Shown one piece after another: positions 6,000-34,661 of a stretch of 64,000 bases of DNA. The stretch's first letter is position 1. Each line of letters starts with the position of its first letter. This stretch comes from Clostridium ljungdahlii. GTDB lineage: Bacteria > Bacillota > Clostridia > Clostridiales > Clostridiaceae. The DNA lies in NCBI RefSeq assembly GCF_001636845.1, contig NZ_LITT01000023.1, positions 124,001 through 188,000 of the forward strand, given 5' to 3'. The notes beneath the pieces were generated by a model. The model was not told the DNA's origin. It made no database searches and saw only the letters and a program-made list of their open reading frames with translations. The translations under genes and the position numbers were made by a program.

Positions 6000-6338
6000 T
6001 GTTATTCCACCTTCCAATATAATATTTTATAGCTATAATATAGGATTCCTAAGTGAAATCTAGATTTATACATATGGATAGATTACTAGTAATTCAATTT
6101 ATTCTTATATTTTATTTGTACAAAAATAAATTATTTTTATGTATAAATCTATAAGTTTAAATTATAAACCCTATATAAAGTTTTTAAAGTCAGGGACAAA
6201 CTTATTTTTTGAACATTTTTACAATATTCGCTAGTTAATCCTAAAGGTACTAAACGTACAATTACAGTATATCAGAAGTAAATTGTTTTTACCATAAATA
6301 CAATATCGAATATATGGAATTTAAATAGAAAGTTGCAT
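6000..6338. other. Intergenic AT-rich stretch with an inverted repeat
   Basis: No gene is visible. Perfect 14-bp inverted arms TAGATTTATACATA (6061-6074) and TATGTATAAATCTA (6138-6151) enclose an AT-rich core that itself contains a palindrome around TTTGTACAAA. The fba promoter must lie near 6000-6060 but no convincing -35/-10 pair stands out. The rest holds nothing I can name. Confidence 0.5.
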
Positions 6339-10474: not shown

Positions 10475-12463
10475 TCAAATTGTAAATTTTTCCACAAGAT
10501 TGTTTAAGGATACGGCTAATGCACTAGATTCCTCAGCACTAGCTGCCACATTTTCAATTGCTGAGTTTTGTTCTTCAGCAGATGCGGCAACTTCTTCACT
10601 GCTAGCTGCAGTGTTTTCAGTAATAGTAGCAACTGTATTAATAAGATTTACTATTTTATCAGAAGTAGCAACTTCATCTTTTGTAACATCCACTATTTCA
10701 TTTACACTGCTTGATATTTGATTTACGGCGTCTATGATACTTACAAAAGATTTATCGGCATCTTTTGCTATTACTACACCAGATTCAACGGCATCTTTGC
10801 TTGAATTCATGTTTTTTACAGCTTTGCTTATTTCATTTACCATTTCGCTTACTAATGAAGATATTTCATTTGCTCCAGTGTTAGTTTCTTCTGAAAGCTT
10901 ACGAACTTCTTCTGCCACCACGGTAAAGCCTTTCCCATGTTCTCCGGCTCTTGCTGCTTCAATAGCTGCGTTTAGTGCTAGTAAGTTAGTTTGAGATGAA
11001 ATACTGTTTATGGTATCAATGATTCCACTTACTTTTTTGGAAAGTTCCTGCAGAACTTTTAAAGTAGTTTCTGTTGCCGTTGATGATTTACGGATATTTT
11101 CAATAGCATCAACTGTATTTTCGATTTTATTTCTTCCTTCTTCTGCAGTGTCCATGGTATGTTTGGAATTCTTTTTAGCTGTGAGTGCCCTATTTTGAGA
11201 TATTTGAACCAAGCTTGATAGTTGAACCAAAACTTCTGATACTTCTACAATAGAGCTATTCTGAGTTTCAGCATCCTTTGCAACTTTTTCTATAGTGCCG
11301 GTCATTTGTTCTGTTGTAGAACTTATTTCCTCATTAGAAGAGGCTAGTTCTTCTGAAGAAGCAGCCAAATTTTCTGATGCATCTCTGACATTACGTATTG
11401 TATTATGCTGATGTTCAATCATTTTATTAAAGTATTCACCTAATGTCTGCAATTCGTCTTCTGTACTTATTTTAGACCTTACAGTTAAATTACCCTCACC
11501 AGCCTTGGTCATTAAACTTTCCAATTGTTTAATTGGATTTATTATATCTCTTATAGAAAATCTATAGGCTAAAAATATTGTAATAAGTAAAGATAATATA
11601 GCTATTATAATTGTAAAATTTCTAATACTTGAAGCAGGAGACATATATGTGTCATAGTCAGCTTCTACTGCTATAATCCAATTATTAGTGGAAACAAATT
11701 TCCCAAACTTACGTGATCCGTTATAGCTATAGTATCCTTCAGAAGTTCCACTTGATTTAGCTTCATTTATTAAAGATTTTAATTGGTTATTAGTGCTATT
11801 TAAAAGATTTTCTTTAAATACTTTGTCTGTTTTAGGATGGGAGATAATAAGCCCATCTTTATTAATCATATATGCATATCCAAAGTTACCCAATTTGACG
11901 TTAGATACTCCTTTAAAAGGTATTATTCCGATTAATGTGCCTACAATTTTATTATCAATTTTTAAAGGATGTGCAATTCCTATTACAGGTTTACCTGTAA
12001 CTTTTGATATTAAAACAGTTTTTTTATTAGTGTTTTTAGAGCCTTCTAAGGCGTCTTTCACGTAGTCTCTGTCACTATAGTCAACGTTATAATTTTCACT
12101 TGAGTTACTAACAATTCCTTTAGCTGACGTATTTGCGATAACTAAACTTTCTATTGTACTATTGTTTTCTTTTTGTATTTTTTGTAGATAATTATAGACT
12201 TCATTATTGTAAGTGGTATCGCCTGAGGCGATTTTTGCCATACGCTCATCAGAACTTAAAATTTTAATATACTCGTCTACCGAATCTATTTTTTCATTTA
12301 TAGACTGCACTGTTTGACTTGAAGTACTTTCCAATTGGTTTTTAATTGTATTTTGCAATAAACTAGAAGTCCTAATATAAGAGAAACTTCCTAAAATAAT
12401 AAGAGGAACAGTTATAAATATAAAGAACATTAAACCTAATTTATTTTTTAAACTTTTTTTCAT
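10475..12463 (-). CDS. Methyl-accepting chemotaxis protein (Cache-HAMP-MCP)
   Basis: A 662-residue receptor: membrane helix 1 (about 8-30), an extracellular double-Cache-like sensor (about 35-280; [36 protein letters not shown]), membrane helix 2 (about 282-302), HAMP (about 303-355), then the coiled-coil signalling domain with the conserved tip [20 protein letters not shown] near residue 490. Cache sensors commonly bind small carboxylates or amino acids; the ligand is unknown. There is no CheB/CheR pentapeptide at the C-terminus. It sits 11 bp before the STAS gene and 134 bp after the kinase gene, and no che genes are nearby. Confidence 0.95.
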
Positions 12464-18592: not shown

Positions 18593-19288
18593 ATGGCATT
18601 CTACGTTTATGTTTTTTTATTACTTATCATGTTTATAATGCTCTTTAGAGGAGCTATTTTAATTAGATTTTTATCAGATAAAATAAAAGTTATAGCGTTT
18701 ATTATTATAGGGGCTATGTTGTTAAGGTACATTTCTATTTTTATTATGTACTTTTCAAGCAGTATGAAATATTTATATTTGCTGAAAGTGCCTTTTTTCT
18801 TGAATTTACTATCAGTTCCAATTATAGTTTTTACAGTGCTTTATATTTTTGTAAGAAAAGATAATGTTAAATTTTATTACATATTTATAATAACTGCAGT
18901 ACTTTGTGCTGCATATGCTATGATGATGTATAAGTGTGAGGCTGTACTGCAAAACTTAGAGGAGTACAAGTTTATTTTAGGATATACTCTTGCTTTATCA
19001 AATCAATATATATACTGGGGGTATTTGGTATTTAATACTTTAGTAATATTTTTTGTTTTGGGATTTGTTAATAAAAATAATGCCAATAAACTTGGTATAT
19101 ACATGGTATTGTTGGCAGCTTGCATAACTATATCAGAGCTCATAGCGTGGCTTATGGGTATTAGAGTTTTAGCAGAAAATATACTTGGAGATGTAAGTTG
19201 GATTGTTGTTTTTATATATGCTTTGAATAAAGTGAAAAAAACAGCTGACAGACTTAATTATAAAGCTCCTAGTAAAGTATCTAGATAA
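18593..19288 (+). CDS. Integral membrane protein, function unknown
   Basis: A 231-residue protein of about seven membrane helices with short loops and a basic C-terminal tail (NKVKKTADRLNYKAPSKVSR). No enzymatic motif or family seen. AAGGAG lies upstream of the ATG. It follows the lipid kinase gene by 78 bp and may share its transcript. Its stop codon is the first triplet of a 227-bp palindrome. Confidence 0.75.
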   Translation: MAFYVYVFLLLIMFIMLFRGAILIRFLSDKIKVIAFIIIGAMLLRYISIFIMYFSSSMKYLYLLKVPFFLNLLSVPIIVFTVLYIFVRKDNVKFYYIFIITAVLCAAYAMMMYKCEAVLQNLEEYKFILGYTLALSNQYIYWGYLVFNTLVIFFVLGFVNKNNANKLGIYMVLLAACITISELIAWLMGIRVLAENILGDVSWIVVFIYALNKVKKTADRLNYKAPSKVSR

Positions 19289-19512
19289 AAAATAACTTAT
19301 GCTCCGAACATTTTTACAACATTCAGTACGTTAAATATTTTGATAAGTCTAAGCAAAAAATCCTAAAAATCTAAGAACTTTTGAAAACTCGTACCTCAAA
19401 CAATTCGAAAGTTCTAAGATTTTTTTAGAAATTTTTTACTAAGACTTATATGCAAAATATTTAAAAGTGCTTCATTATTGTAAAAATGTTTCTGCGCATA
19501 AGTTATTTTTTA
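19286..19512. repeat. Giant palindrome A (227 bp) with conserved 18-nt loop
   Basis: The outer arms TAAAAAATAACTTATGC (19286-19302) and its exact complement (19496-19512) match perfectly. Further in, the arms pair with interruptions: CATTTTTACAA, AAATATTTT, AAGTCTAAG, AAAATCTAAGAAC and CTTTTGAA each have a counterpart. The apex AAACTCGTACCTCAAACA (19385-19402) is largely unpaired. It starts at the stop codon of the upstream gene. A related element lies next to it in the opposite orientation. It may act as a two-way terminator; origin by a mobile element is likely but unproven. Confidence 0.85.
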
Positions 19513-19515
19513 AGC

Positions 19516-19798
19516 TAGAAATTTTATATGTAATTATTCTAATAGAAGTTTCATCTTATACATAACATATAATAACAAAATTGAAGGCACATTAAAAAAC
19601 TTTTCCATAAGTCTTAGCGAGGTATTTTAGAAAATCTTAGAAGCTTAGATATGTTTGAGGTATGAGTTTAGCTAAGGTTCTTAGATTTTCAAAATACCGA
19701 GCTTTAGACTTAGTAAAAGTTTTTTACGTGGTGAAATTTGTTATTATATAGTTTGGTATAAGTTTGACTTCTAATCGAAAAATTCTATGAAATTTCTT
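19516..19798. repeat. Giant palindrome B (about 283 bp), related to A and inverted
   Basis: The arms run from TAGAAATTTT at 19516 to AAATTTCTTA at the YgiQ stop codon. Matching blocks include CTAATAGAAGT, TATAATAACAAA, AAAAAACTTTT, AAGTCTTAG, GGTATTTT and AAAATCTTAGAA. The apex at 19652-19669 is, on the minus strand, AAACTCATACCTCAAACA: 17 of 18 bases identical to palindrome A. The inner stem blocks around the loop are also shared with A, so both derive from one element family. Confidence 0.8.
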
Positions 19799-21641
19799 AC
19801 TTAGAACTCTTATGACTGATTTTACGATGACGCCTTTTTGGAGGATTTTTCGGTATTAAGCAGTGAGGACCAGATCCAATTAGATCTTCACGACCACATT
19901 TGATTAAAGCCTCTTTTACTAAATTGTAATTTTTCGGAACAGAAAATTGTAAAAGTGCTCTTTGCTCATTTTTCTCTTTTTGTGATTTAGGTACATATAC
20001 TTTCTCACCACTTAAAGGATTAATGCCTGTATAGTACATAGTTGTAGATAAACTACCAGGTGTAGGATAAAAGTCCTGGACTTGTTCAGGAGTATATCCC
20101 ATGCTTTTTATATACTCAGCTAGTTCTATAGCTGCATTTAAGTCACTTCCTGGGTGACTGGACATGAGGTAAGGAACTAGATATTGTTTTTTATTTATTT
20201 TTTTGTTTATTTCAAAATATTTTTTTACAAATTTATTGTATACGTCCATCTTAGGTTTTCCCATTTGATTTAGAACCCTGCCACTTATATGTTCTGGAGC
20301 TACTTTTAATTGTCCACTTATGTGATATTTACATAAGTCTTCAAAAAAATCCGTATTTTTATCATTTATTAGATAGTCATATCTTATTCCTGAACGTATA
20401 AATACCTTTTTTATACCAGGGATTTTTCTTATTTTTCTCAATAGATTTAAGTATTCACTATGATCTATAATTAAGTTTTTGCAGGGAGAAGGGAAGAGAC
20501 ATTGTCTATTTTTACACACCCCCACTTTTTCTTGTATTTTGCACGCCTTATGCCTAAAATTTGCAGTAGGACCTCCTACATCATGTATGTATCCTTTAAA
20601 GTCATCTAAAGTAGTTAATAATTTGGCCTCATCAATTATAGACTTTTGGCTCCTATTTTGGATAGTTCTACCTTGGTGAAAAGTAAGAGCGCAAAAAGAG
20701 CAGCCTCCATAACAACCCCTATGACTTGTAATGGAGAAACTTACTTCTTTTATAGCAGGTATTCCACCAAATTTTTCGTATATAGGGTGGTATGTTCTCA
20801 TGTAGGGTAAATCATATACTATATCCATTTCCTCTTCTGTTAATGGAAATTGTGGTGGGTTTTGAACAATATAATGATCTCCATGTTTTTGTATTAAGGT
20901 TTTTCCCCTTAATGCGTCTTGTTCGTAATATTCTAGTTTATAGCTTTCGGCATAAGCGTTTTTTTCTTGTGTTACTTTTTCAAAAGAAGGTACTTCCACA
21001 TAATCCTTTATGAGCGATTTATTTTTACAAGGGTACACTGTACCTCTTACATCTGTAATTTTATGGATATCCATTCCGTATTTTAATAGGTTTGCCACTT
21101 GTACTATGGTTTTTTCTCCCATACCATATATGAGTAGATCTGCTTTTGAATCTAAAAGTATACTTCTTCTTACGTTATCGCTCCAGTAATCATAATGTGC
21201 AAATCTCCTTAAGCTGGCTTCTATTCCACCAATCACTATTGGAACATCCTTATAGGCTTCTCTTGCCCTGTTGCAGTATACTATTACAGCCCTGTCGGGT
21301 CTGTAACCAGATTTACCTCCTGGGGAGTAAAGATCATCATGTCTTTTTTTCTTTGACGCGGTGTAGTGATTAACCATGGAATCTATATTTCCAGAGTTTA
21401 TTAAAAAAGCCAATTTAGGTTTTCCAAGTTTCATAAAATCATTTGCATTTTTCCAGTTAGGCTGAGCTATTATTCCTACTTTAAAGCCTTCTTTTTCCAA
21501 AACTCTTGATATTATAGCTGAGCCGAAAGAAGGATGATCTACGTAAGCATCTCCTGTTATAAGGACAAAATCTAACTGGTTTATATTTCTTGCGTTCATG
21601 TCATTTTTACATATAGGTAAAAAAGTAGTATTTAAATTCAA
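19797..21641 (-). CDS. ygiQ: YgiQ family radical SAM protein
   Basis: About 614 residues. The N-terminal domain has [19 protein letters not shown] and the central radical SAM domain has CYGGCSFC near residues 307-314, binding a [4Fe-4S] cluster for S-adenosylmethionine cleavage. Downstream are [23 protein letters not shown] and [15 protein letters not shown], then a basic tail. The reaction of YgiQ proteins is unknown. I chose the TTG at 21641, eight bases after GGAG; the longer GTG frame at 21680 lacks a ribosome site. It converges on the unknown membrane gene across the twin palindromes. Confidence 0.93.
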
Positions 21642-21877
21642 TTTACATTCTCCGTTCTTATATTTCAGATTTAGTTTCACTTATTTTTAGTATAACATAT
21701 TATATTATGAGATAAATATTTAGGAATATGTAGATTTTGAATGGTGATAAGAAGAATAGGACACACACTAAATAATATAAATATGCAAAGATAAATTATG
21801 ATATTTTACATTAAAATGAGCAAAATGAAATTAAAGTATTGTAACAGGTAAATATAAATAAATTTAATATTTACTAG

Positions 21878-29475: not shown

Positions 29476-29643
29476 GTTTATCCGATGACTACCTGCTCTA
29501 ATACTCTCACGTCTCCAAGTGGAAGTAAAGAGCAGGTACGTCCCTGGATAACGATTTTCCCTAAAGGATAACGGCTTCTAAGTGCTGAAGCACTAAGAAG
29601 CTTGTTAATAAGCATCAGATGGAGTTAAAACTATATCTGATGC
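29476..29643 (+). ncRNA. Structured RNA between mazF and transketolase (family uncertain; RaiA-like?)
   Basis: Several stems are readable. TACCTGCTCT (29490-29499) pairs perfectly with AGAGCAGGTA (29529-29538). GTTTATCC (29476-29483) can pair with either of two GGATAAC copies (29546-29552, 29566-29572), a possible switch or pseudoknot. GCTTCTAAGTGCT / AGCACTAAGAAGC (29574-29601) forms a 12-bp hairpin with one A-A mismatch. GCATCAGAT / ATCTGATGC (29612-29643) closes the 3' end. Composition is richer in G+C than the flanks. From memory it resembles the clostridial RaiA RNA, but the name needs a covariance-model search. Confidence 0.65.
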
Positions 29644-29680
29644 CAAGAATTCTGTTTATATAGTTTAGGAGGTTAAGGGT

Positions 29681-34576: not shown

Positions 34577-34631
34577 GGCATTTGAAAGAAAATAGGCTAG
34601 CATACTGACTAGTTATTTCTTTGAAAATGCC
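34577..34631 (+). repeat. 55-bp dispersed palindromic repeat, copy 2
   Basis: Identical in length to 16981-17035 and differing at only three positions. Arms GGCATTTGAAAGAAAATAG and TTATTTCTTTGAAAATGCC flank a GCTAGCATACTGACTAG centre. It lies between ctpA and the MinJ-like gene, not next to a start codon. Confidence 0.85.
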
Positions 34632-34661
34632 TTAAGCGAATATAATTGTATTTGAAGTTTT

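Follow-up and report, generated by a model that had tools for sequence, protein, structure and literature searches.

Giant Twin Hairpins with a Conserved Tip Form a DNA Repeat Family at Gene 3′ Ends in Clostridium ljungdahlii and Other Clostridia

Introduction

Ordinary MITEs, such as Correia and RUP, are short non-coding elements that have terminal inverted ends and leave internal-deletion remnants. The attC sites of integrons are hairpins in which unpaired features are conserved and the stem sequence is free. In bcr1, a repeat of the Bacillus cereus group, a 5-bp TTTAT duplication is found. The palindromic REP/BIME sequences are highly repeated. Most copies lie downstream of genes and in convergent or tandem intergenic regions; units in opposite orientation are common, and their ends can supply a stop codon. 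Single REPs measure 20–40 bp and carry a GTAG/CGTC tag (excerpts of PMC3733652). The bcr1–bcr18 repeats of the Bacillus cereus group are intergenic, some of them are MITE-like and they are often parts of UTRs (excerpts of PMC3446304). The length of bcr1 is 147–167 nt, and Clostridium tetani contains the stem-loop family Clot-1 of 74 nt with 19 copies (excerpts of PMC2267715). In the present work, a pair of giant hairpins from the genome of Clostridium ljungdahlii is described and compared with these systems.

Results

Structure of the Unit

The window, i.e., the whole 64,000-nt stretch of DNA that was analysed, belongs to contig C12 of the genome under study (G000); G006 and G008 are two close relatives, and the three are referred to below as the three close species. 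A sequence-only reading of the window had described two inverted repeats, A and B, which fold on themselves, share an apex and fill the space between two convergent genes. Folding with DNA parameters bore this out: hairpin A has an energy of −54.2 kcal/mol (shuffle mean −17.2, z = −12.2) and hairpin B of −59.5 kcal/mol (shuffle mean −19.6, z = −11.9), and none of 200 shuffles folded as well as A or as B. The 18-base apices are identical at 17 positions, AAACTCGTACCTCAAACA being found on the forward strand in A and AAACTCATACCTCAAACA read on the reverse strand in B. The hairpins adjoin the stop codons of both genes, and no ORF of at least 80 aa lies in between. The features are as follows:

18593..19288, + strand: putative membrane-protein ORF, stop codon 19286–19288 at the foot of A (ORF call; name from the sequence-only reading)
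19270..19792, no strand: whole twin-hairpin unit, approximate ends set by eye against other copies
19286..19512, + strand: hairpin A, loop polarity sense to the upstream putative membrane-protein gene
19349..19353, + strand: CTAAG in the 5′ arm of A, outer of two, conserved slot
19371..19375, + strand: CTAAG in the 5′ arm of A, inner, conserved slot
19385..19402, + strand: tip of A, 18 nt, from sequence and family counts
19414..19418, + strand: CTAAG in the 3′ arm of A, inner, conserved slot, A.A mismatch with 19371–19375
19439..19443, + strand: CTAAG in the 3′ arm of A, outer, conserved slot
19516..19798, − strand: hairpin B, loop polarity sense to ygiQ
19613..19617, − strand: CTAAG in the 3′ arm of B, outer
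19636..19640, − strand: CTAAG in the 3′ arm of B, inner
19652..19669, − strand: tip of B, 18 nt
19680..19684, − strand: CTAAG in the 5′ arm of B, inner
19709..19713, − strand: CTAAG in the 5′ arm of B, outer
19797..21680, − strand: YgiQ-like ORF, stop codon 19797–19799 adjoining B (ORF call; name from the sequence-only reading)

The outer ends of the unit are related to those of other copies, which are TATAGAGTTTCTAA..TTAGAAACTCTATA-like, and by eye the unit extends into the 3′ end of the upstream ORF (to about 19270). The outer arms of A and B are dissimilar by eye. The unit is collinear with G008 (96% over 800 nt) and is altered in G006.

A sequence-conserved internal loop, CTCCG in the 5′ arm and CTGCG in the 3′ arm, was also seen near the foot of A-type hairpins of G000 (for example at window positions 19302–19306 and 19493–19498), and it recurs in copies from C. 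magnum, C. thailandense and G132. At window positions 6199–6238 and 11932–11955, short sequences that match parts of A and B may be remnants.

Copy Number and Distribution

A and B together make up one member of a DNA repeat family, of which the genome contains at least 84 copies. The tip, with at most one mismatch, was found 84 times in G000, 72 times in G006 and 81 times in G008, and the reversed-pattern control gave 0 matches in these three genomes and 2 across all 206 genomes of the bacterial family. A BLAST search of the 513-nt sequence against its own genome returned at least 90 matches, many of which are a palindrome matched a second time on the opposite strand; 40 of the 195 candidates of this first look were scored. 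At least 11 other loci of G000 match about 450–500 nt or more of the window unit with 79–85% identity.

The distribution of the family is patchy. With at most one mismatch the tip was found in 9 of the 206 genomes and in 4 of 46 genera, and 10 other genomes of the same genus contained none. The remaining carriers have 12 (G108), 119 (G112), 2 (G125), 5 (G126), 8 (G131) and 8 (G132) tips. Among the matches listed, the named carriers are C. thailandense, C. magnum, C. ragsdalei and C. rhizosphaerae, together with one MAG. Shared sequence links G108 to C. magnum and G125 to C. rhizosphaerae, and the tip positions of G112 agree with C. thailandense. The exact tip occurs in 2 of the 291 genomes of a class sample (G000 and G131) and in none of the 278 that lie outside the bacterial family, where an exact-only search would miss variants. 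No match to the repeat was found in plasmid and phage collections, and viral contigs contained no exact tips. A literature search that included the tip strings, with subscription journals mostly outside its reach, returned no description of the repeat family.

Conservation of the Tip and Pairing of the Arms

An intact hairpin was found around 190 of 198 tips (at most two mismatches). By eye, three of the eight others (L174, L245 and L198) lack one arm, with the break at the tip, while L111 contains an interruption next to the tip and L283 appears to be a chance match.

Conservation between genera was estimated for 175 hairpins (110, 42, 14 and 8 from four genera and 1 from the MAG) using 240 random between-genus pairs. 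The identity of the tip was 0.95 (shuffled 0.62), against 0.59–0.67 for the arms (shuffled 0.56–0.59); these hairpins were located via the tip (at most three mismatches), and the tip value is partly set by this retrieval. When five contig stretches from the three close species were searched by the arms alone, with arm profiles built from tip-bearing copies, 51 hairpins were recovered, all with at most two tip mismatches (29 with none, 20 with one and 2 with two). Changed tips were found in the right-hand hairpins of two G131 units, L269 and L271. Conservation of the tip across genera is as expected of a recognition site. Outer ends are shared within a clade and differ between genera; L163 of G126 has outer ends GGGGCTGTCTCAAAATAT..ATATTTTGAGACAGCCCC, very unlike those of the C. 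ljungdahlii group, and an identical tip.

Within a hairpin, the two arms match each other at 0.79 (175 hairpins). The motif CTAA occupies the four arm slots in 140, 143, 168 and 154 of the 175 hairpins, against 7, 7, 7 and 0 for its complement TTAG. Thus, CTAA stands on the same strand in both arms and A.A mismatches are retained.

The pairing of own arms was compared with that of arms swapped within subfamilies of G000, using three zones and 5000 permutations; the relatedness of the copies remains in this test. For A (34 copies), own and swapped arms gave −25.2 and −21.9 kcal/mol in the inner zone, −19.7 and −16.4 in the middle zone and −21.1 and −14.7 in the outer zone. The values for B (20 copies) were −31.0 and −25.7, −20.1 and −16.4, and −18.7 and −14.7 kcal/mol, respectively. 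None of the 5000 permutations matched own-arm pairing in any zone of A or B, so that the arms change in a coordinated manner. Both the conserved loop and the drift of arms that keep pairing had been proposed from the window alone, and both hold for the family. RNAalifold found no pairs in the cross-genus alignment A1, in which the arms are out of register.

RNA Fold or DNA Palindrome

If selection acted on the fold of the sense RNA, G.U would be expected to exceed A.C among the imperfect pairs of the sense strand. The raw counts were 318 for G.U and 508 for A.C (175 hairpins, shared positions counted repeatedly), and those from consensus pairs were 118/140 for A (65 copies), 90/117 for B (45 copies) and 50/105 for C. 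thailandense (37 copies); neither set is independent between copies. Counted by sites, the ratios were 43/38, 40/49 and 29/46, respectively, with no clear preference. Pair-keeping double changes amounted to 223 (A), 177 (B) and 275 (C. thailandense) cells, without an excess of G.U. The test thus gave no support for selection on a sense RNA fold, and the result speaks for a palindrome that is maintained as DNA; the surplus of A.C in C. thailandense might even be a hint of the opposite strand. Simple arm-to-arm correction would be expected to remove the A.A mismatches. Their presence, like that of the tip, therefore calls for a different cause, which may be recognition. In a search of window positions 19000–20100 and six loci against Rfam, no match reached the gathering score, and the sub-threshold matches were to miRNA families only.

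Position Relative to Genes and Terminators

Most of the hairpins lie at gene 3′ ends. In the five contig stretches, the upstream neighbour was a sense gene for 39 of 48 hairpins, and each of these genes ended within 44 nt of the foot. None of the 48 was located between divergent genes; 22 were between convergent and 25 between tandem genes, and one was at the end of a stretch. A sense stop codon was found 40–230 nt upstream of 90 of 133 tips, in 65 of these 90 at 110–139 nt, and an antisense stop at the mirrored distance for 27 of 133. A gene start lay on the 5′ side of 17 and on the 3′ side of 8 of the 133 tips. Note that the genes in these counts are plain ORF calls and that same-place copies of the three close species were counted separately, so not all counts are independent.

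Of 111 solo hairpins, 69 had a sense stop only, 6 an antisense stop only, 13 both and 23 none, and in G000 alone the numbers were 20, 0, 3 and 5, respectively. Of the 64 hairpins (out of 175) with a neighbouring hairpin, 43 had a sense stop and 21 none. Since a twin unit offers a sense hairpin to either flanking gene, the sense bias needs no special mechanism there. In solo hairpins, which may derive from twin units, the bias could come from retention of the gene-proximal half. Among the 23 solo hairpins without an adjacent stop, 7 had an antisense stop at 177–253 nt, as expected if the gene-proximal half was lost, and 3 had a sense stop at 168–261 nt. The sense preference of solo hairpins is also expected from an RNA role.

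Canonical terminators were found after 1 of 39 elements, at 35 of 150 control gene ends and in 2 of 172 coding stretches, using a home-made finder for which 35 of 150 is also the detection rate at ordinary gene ends.

Twin Arrangement, Inversion and Mobility

All 32 pairs of neighbouring intact hairpins within 700 nt run + then −. Same-polarity tips 160–182 nt apart were found at two loci (C12:343.8 kb and L038), where one hairpin is non-intact by the filter. The arrangement is extragenic, gene-downstream and twin inverted, as in REP/BIME. In the C. ljungdahlii group the terminal inverted ends begin with TATAG, and two short remnants retain both ends; a scan for the outer-end motif returned mostly background. 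Between + and − tips lying 3.8 kb apart on contig C8 of G000, the ORFs look ordinary by eye (alanine-racemase-like and lipoprotein-like) in the part of the interval that was covered, all but 781 nt.

Five units of G131 (L269–L272 and L274) span 1.1–1.8 kb by their inverted ends, which in L269 comprise 30 bp at 97% identity. In L269 and L271 a hairpin is present at either end, and in L272 the right-hand hairpin has apparently been lost. The middle of L269 contains no ORF above 52 aa, and a middle segment of L271 is inverted relative to L269, L272 or L274. L269, L271 and L274 are alike over 554–558 nt (98.4–99.6%), and L269 and L274 over 1822 nt (97%), so that this genome with 8 tips has three long copies 97–99.6% alike at different loci. 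The site of L270 corresponds to an orthologous gene junction of G132 (L284) that has no unit, with 62 nt between the matches. These near-identical copies and the unit-less junction suggest mobility. At five other G131 loci the queried pieces matched G132 on one side only, and L267 also matches further away. Inspection by eye of the G131 sites and of the unit-less G132 junction resolved no target-site duplication.

Tip positions were compared over about 276 kb of C12 with five mismatches allowed; this admits chance tips, and only intact hairpins were used. For intact hairpins with anchors on either side, G006 has a tip at the same place and with the same polarity in 7 of 8 cases, and G008 does so in 3 of 3. 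Starting from G006, 7 of 8 hairpins are kept in G000, which has a reduced form of one, at 453.9 kb. Copies on this stretch are thus mostly old and not recently mobile there. Contig C24 of G000 and C22 of G008 showed no orthology and no long match.

The comparison with G006 revealed the in-place inversion of at least one whole unit: C12:265890–266522 aligns to G006 in reverse (94.4% over 638 nt), and its flanks are collinear (92.7% and 96.3%). For the unit at C12:272 kb, the reversed match in G006 lies within the unit (80% over 524 nt). Window hairpin A matches G006 in reverse with 85% over 251 nt, which is the level between unlinked copies.

Other palindromes were also noticed. A 168-nt multi-hairpin insertion (TTTAT-CCGATGACTACC...) at window positions 29482–29649 (C12:153482–153649) is absent from the same place in G006 and G008 and belongs to a second, polymorphic palindromic family; by eye, TTTAT stands on both sides of it. 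A small palindromic insertion of about 52–63 nt relative to G006 and G008 lies at 34586–34650. At two G132 loci, L286 and L288, the place that the giant hairpin has in G131 is held by another palindromic family (AGAGGACATAGGACA...), which also starts soon after stop codons. Locus L102 (C12:247901–267900 of G000) contains, upstream of its tip at C12:266009, a long near-perfect hairpin GTGCCAGGCACC...GGTGCCTGGCACC directly after a stop codon, beside the flipped unit.

Search for Mobilising Machinery

A search for a Y1/TnpA-like or other enzyme with matching sites had been proposed from the window. The Y1_Tnp profile was found in 18 of 24 genomes searched, among them carriers (7 of 9) as well as many non-carriers, and was not detected in the carriers G006 (72 tips) and G131 (8 tips), so a Y1/TnpA partner is not supported. 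RVT_1 was found in 8 of 13 genomes, including the carriers G000, G008, G108 and G125, and was not detected in the carriers G006, G131, G132, G112 and G126. DDE_3 (IS630-type) was found in G112 only, of six genomes searched, the other five being G006, G131, G132, G125 and G126. Neither an autonomous copy nor a mobilising enzyme of the Y1, reverse-transcriptase or IS630 type was revealed.

Discussion

Evaluation of Explanations

The best explanation, to which we assign a probability of about 0.5, is a non-autonomous twin-hairpin DNA element, REP/BIME- or MITE-like, that would be recognised by its tip. A full unit has a giant hairpin at either end, the two being of opposite polarity (A+ B−). It settles at gene 3′ ends with its own ends abutting the stop codons, where it appears to replace the ordinary terminator of the gene. 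The part conserved across genera is the hairpin tip together with same-strand CTAAG, and not the outer ends as in ordinary MITEs. An enzyme would recognise the extruded hairpin, as a cruciform or as single-stranded DNA, via the tip and would move or copy the unit. Symmetry of the arms would be maintained on the DNA by arm-to-arm correction or renewal, and the tip and the A.A mismatches would be held by selection. Units can flip in place and would lose the interior or one hairpin, giving rise to solo hairpins and short remnants. The mobile element with a recognised loop that the sequence-only reading had proposed thus stands as regards the repeat family, the coordinated arm changes and the conserved tip, and falls short as regards the Y1/TnpA partner. 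Against the best explanation speak the failure to find a mobilising enzyme, a target duplication or an autonomous copy, the outer ends, whose variation between genera would be unusual if the element were cut there, the anchored copies shared by close species and the changed tips in L269 and L271. A more specific proposal, which we consider doubtful, is a mobile-DNA class in which an enzyme other than Y1, reverse transcriptase or the IS630 type recognises the tip of the extruded giant hairpin and moves the element. The recognised feature would be the 18-nt tip with the four same-strand, mismatched CTAAG sites instead of the ends; the element would land at gene ends and replace terminators, and the twin unit would invert in place.

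An unlikely, though serious, rival is a functional RNA: the hairpin would be transcribed as a 3′ UTR or terminator, its loop AAACUCGUACCUCAAACA would be bound by a protein or RNA, and selection would keep the sense orientation. The sense, stop-adjacent position, the scarcity of terminators after the elements and the conservation of the loop and A.A mismatches across genera agree with it; the wobble counts, in which G.U does not exceed A.C either in the raw numbers or in consensus pairs, and the Rfam result do not. The same holds for the bidirectional terminator that had been proposed for the window unit, since position and scarce canonical terminators fit and the wobble test gave no sign of selection on the sense fold. 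That the hairpins are instead ordinary MITEs, moved in trans by a DDE transposase via terminal inverted repeats, with an incidental interior and a 3′-end location that reflects mere tolerance, we consider improbable. The inverted ends, both in the C. ljungdahlii group and in L269, and the two remnants that retain them are what such an element would show, and other palindromic families either lie just after stop codons (G132) or vary in presence between close species. It remains at odds with ends that vary between genera, with a tip that a MITE does not need and that is the most conserved part, and with the failure to detect DDE_3 in five of six genomes. Very improbable is an element driven by Y1/TnpA (REP/RAYT-like) or by a reverse transcriptase. 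The twin inverted arrangement and gene-end position recall REPs as described in the excerpts of PMC3733652, and most carriers encode Y1_Tnp, but this profile was not detected in two carriers and was found in many non-carriers, and RVT_1 was not detected in five carriers.

If the tip is recognised, the usual logic of non-autonomous elements, with conserved ends and a free interior, would be reversed, and an undescribed enzyme would be indicated in acetogenic and related clostridia. Dozens of gene ends in some genomes would then be given over to a mobile palindrome, which would bear on termination and mRNA decay in gas-fermenting strains. Genetic tools exist for C. ljungdahlii, so the idea of tip recognition is testable.

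Comparison with Known Systems

The free stem sequence and conserved unpaired features are shared with attC sites, whereas the stem is far longer here and no cassette array was seen. Inverted ends, absence of coding sequence and internal-deletion remnants are common to this family and ordinary MITEs; in contrast to the latter, it is the interior tip that is conserved here, with ends that vary from genus to genus. As intergenic repeats of Firmicutes, the hairpins resemble bcr1–bcr18 (PMC3446304, in excerpts), and they are set apart by description, a giant palindrome with a constant tip not being among the features given for bcr repeats in the excerpts at hand. Clot-1, compared by description only (excerpts of PMC2267715), is likewise an intergenic-type stem-loop family of a clostridium. 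The family resembles REP/BIME in that both are palindromic and multicopy, lie downstream of genes, include units in opposite orientation and have ends that can supply a stop codon (PMC3733652, in excerpts). However, in place of REPs of 20–40 bp with GTAG/CGTC, hairpins of about 250 nt with arms of about 115 nt, an 18-nt tip and CTAAG are found here, and, unlike for RAYT-REPs, the Y1 transposase was not detected in two carrier genomes. Thus, this is a patchily distributed twin-hairpin family that is REP/BIME- or MITE-like in its behaviour and lacks those defining features of RAYT-REPs that were tested.
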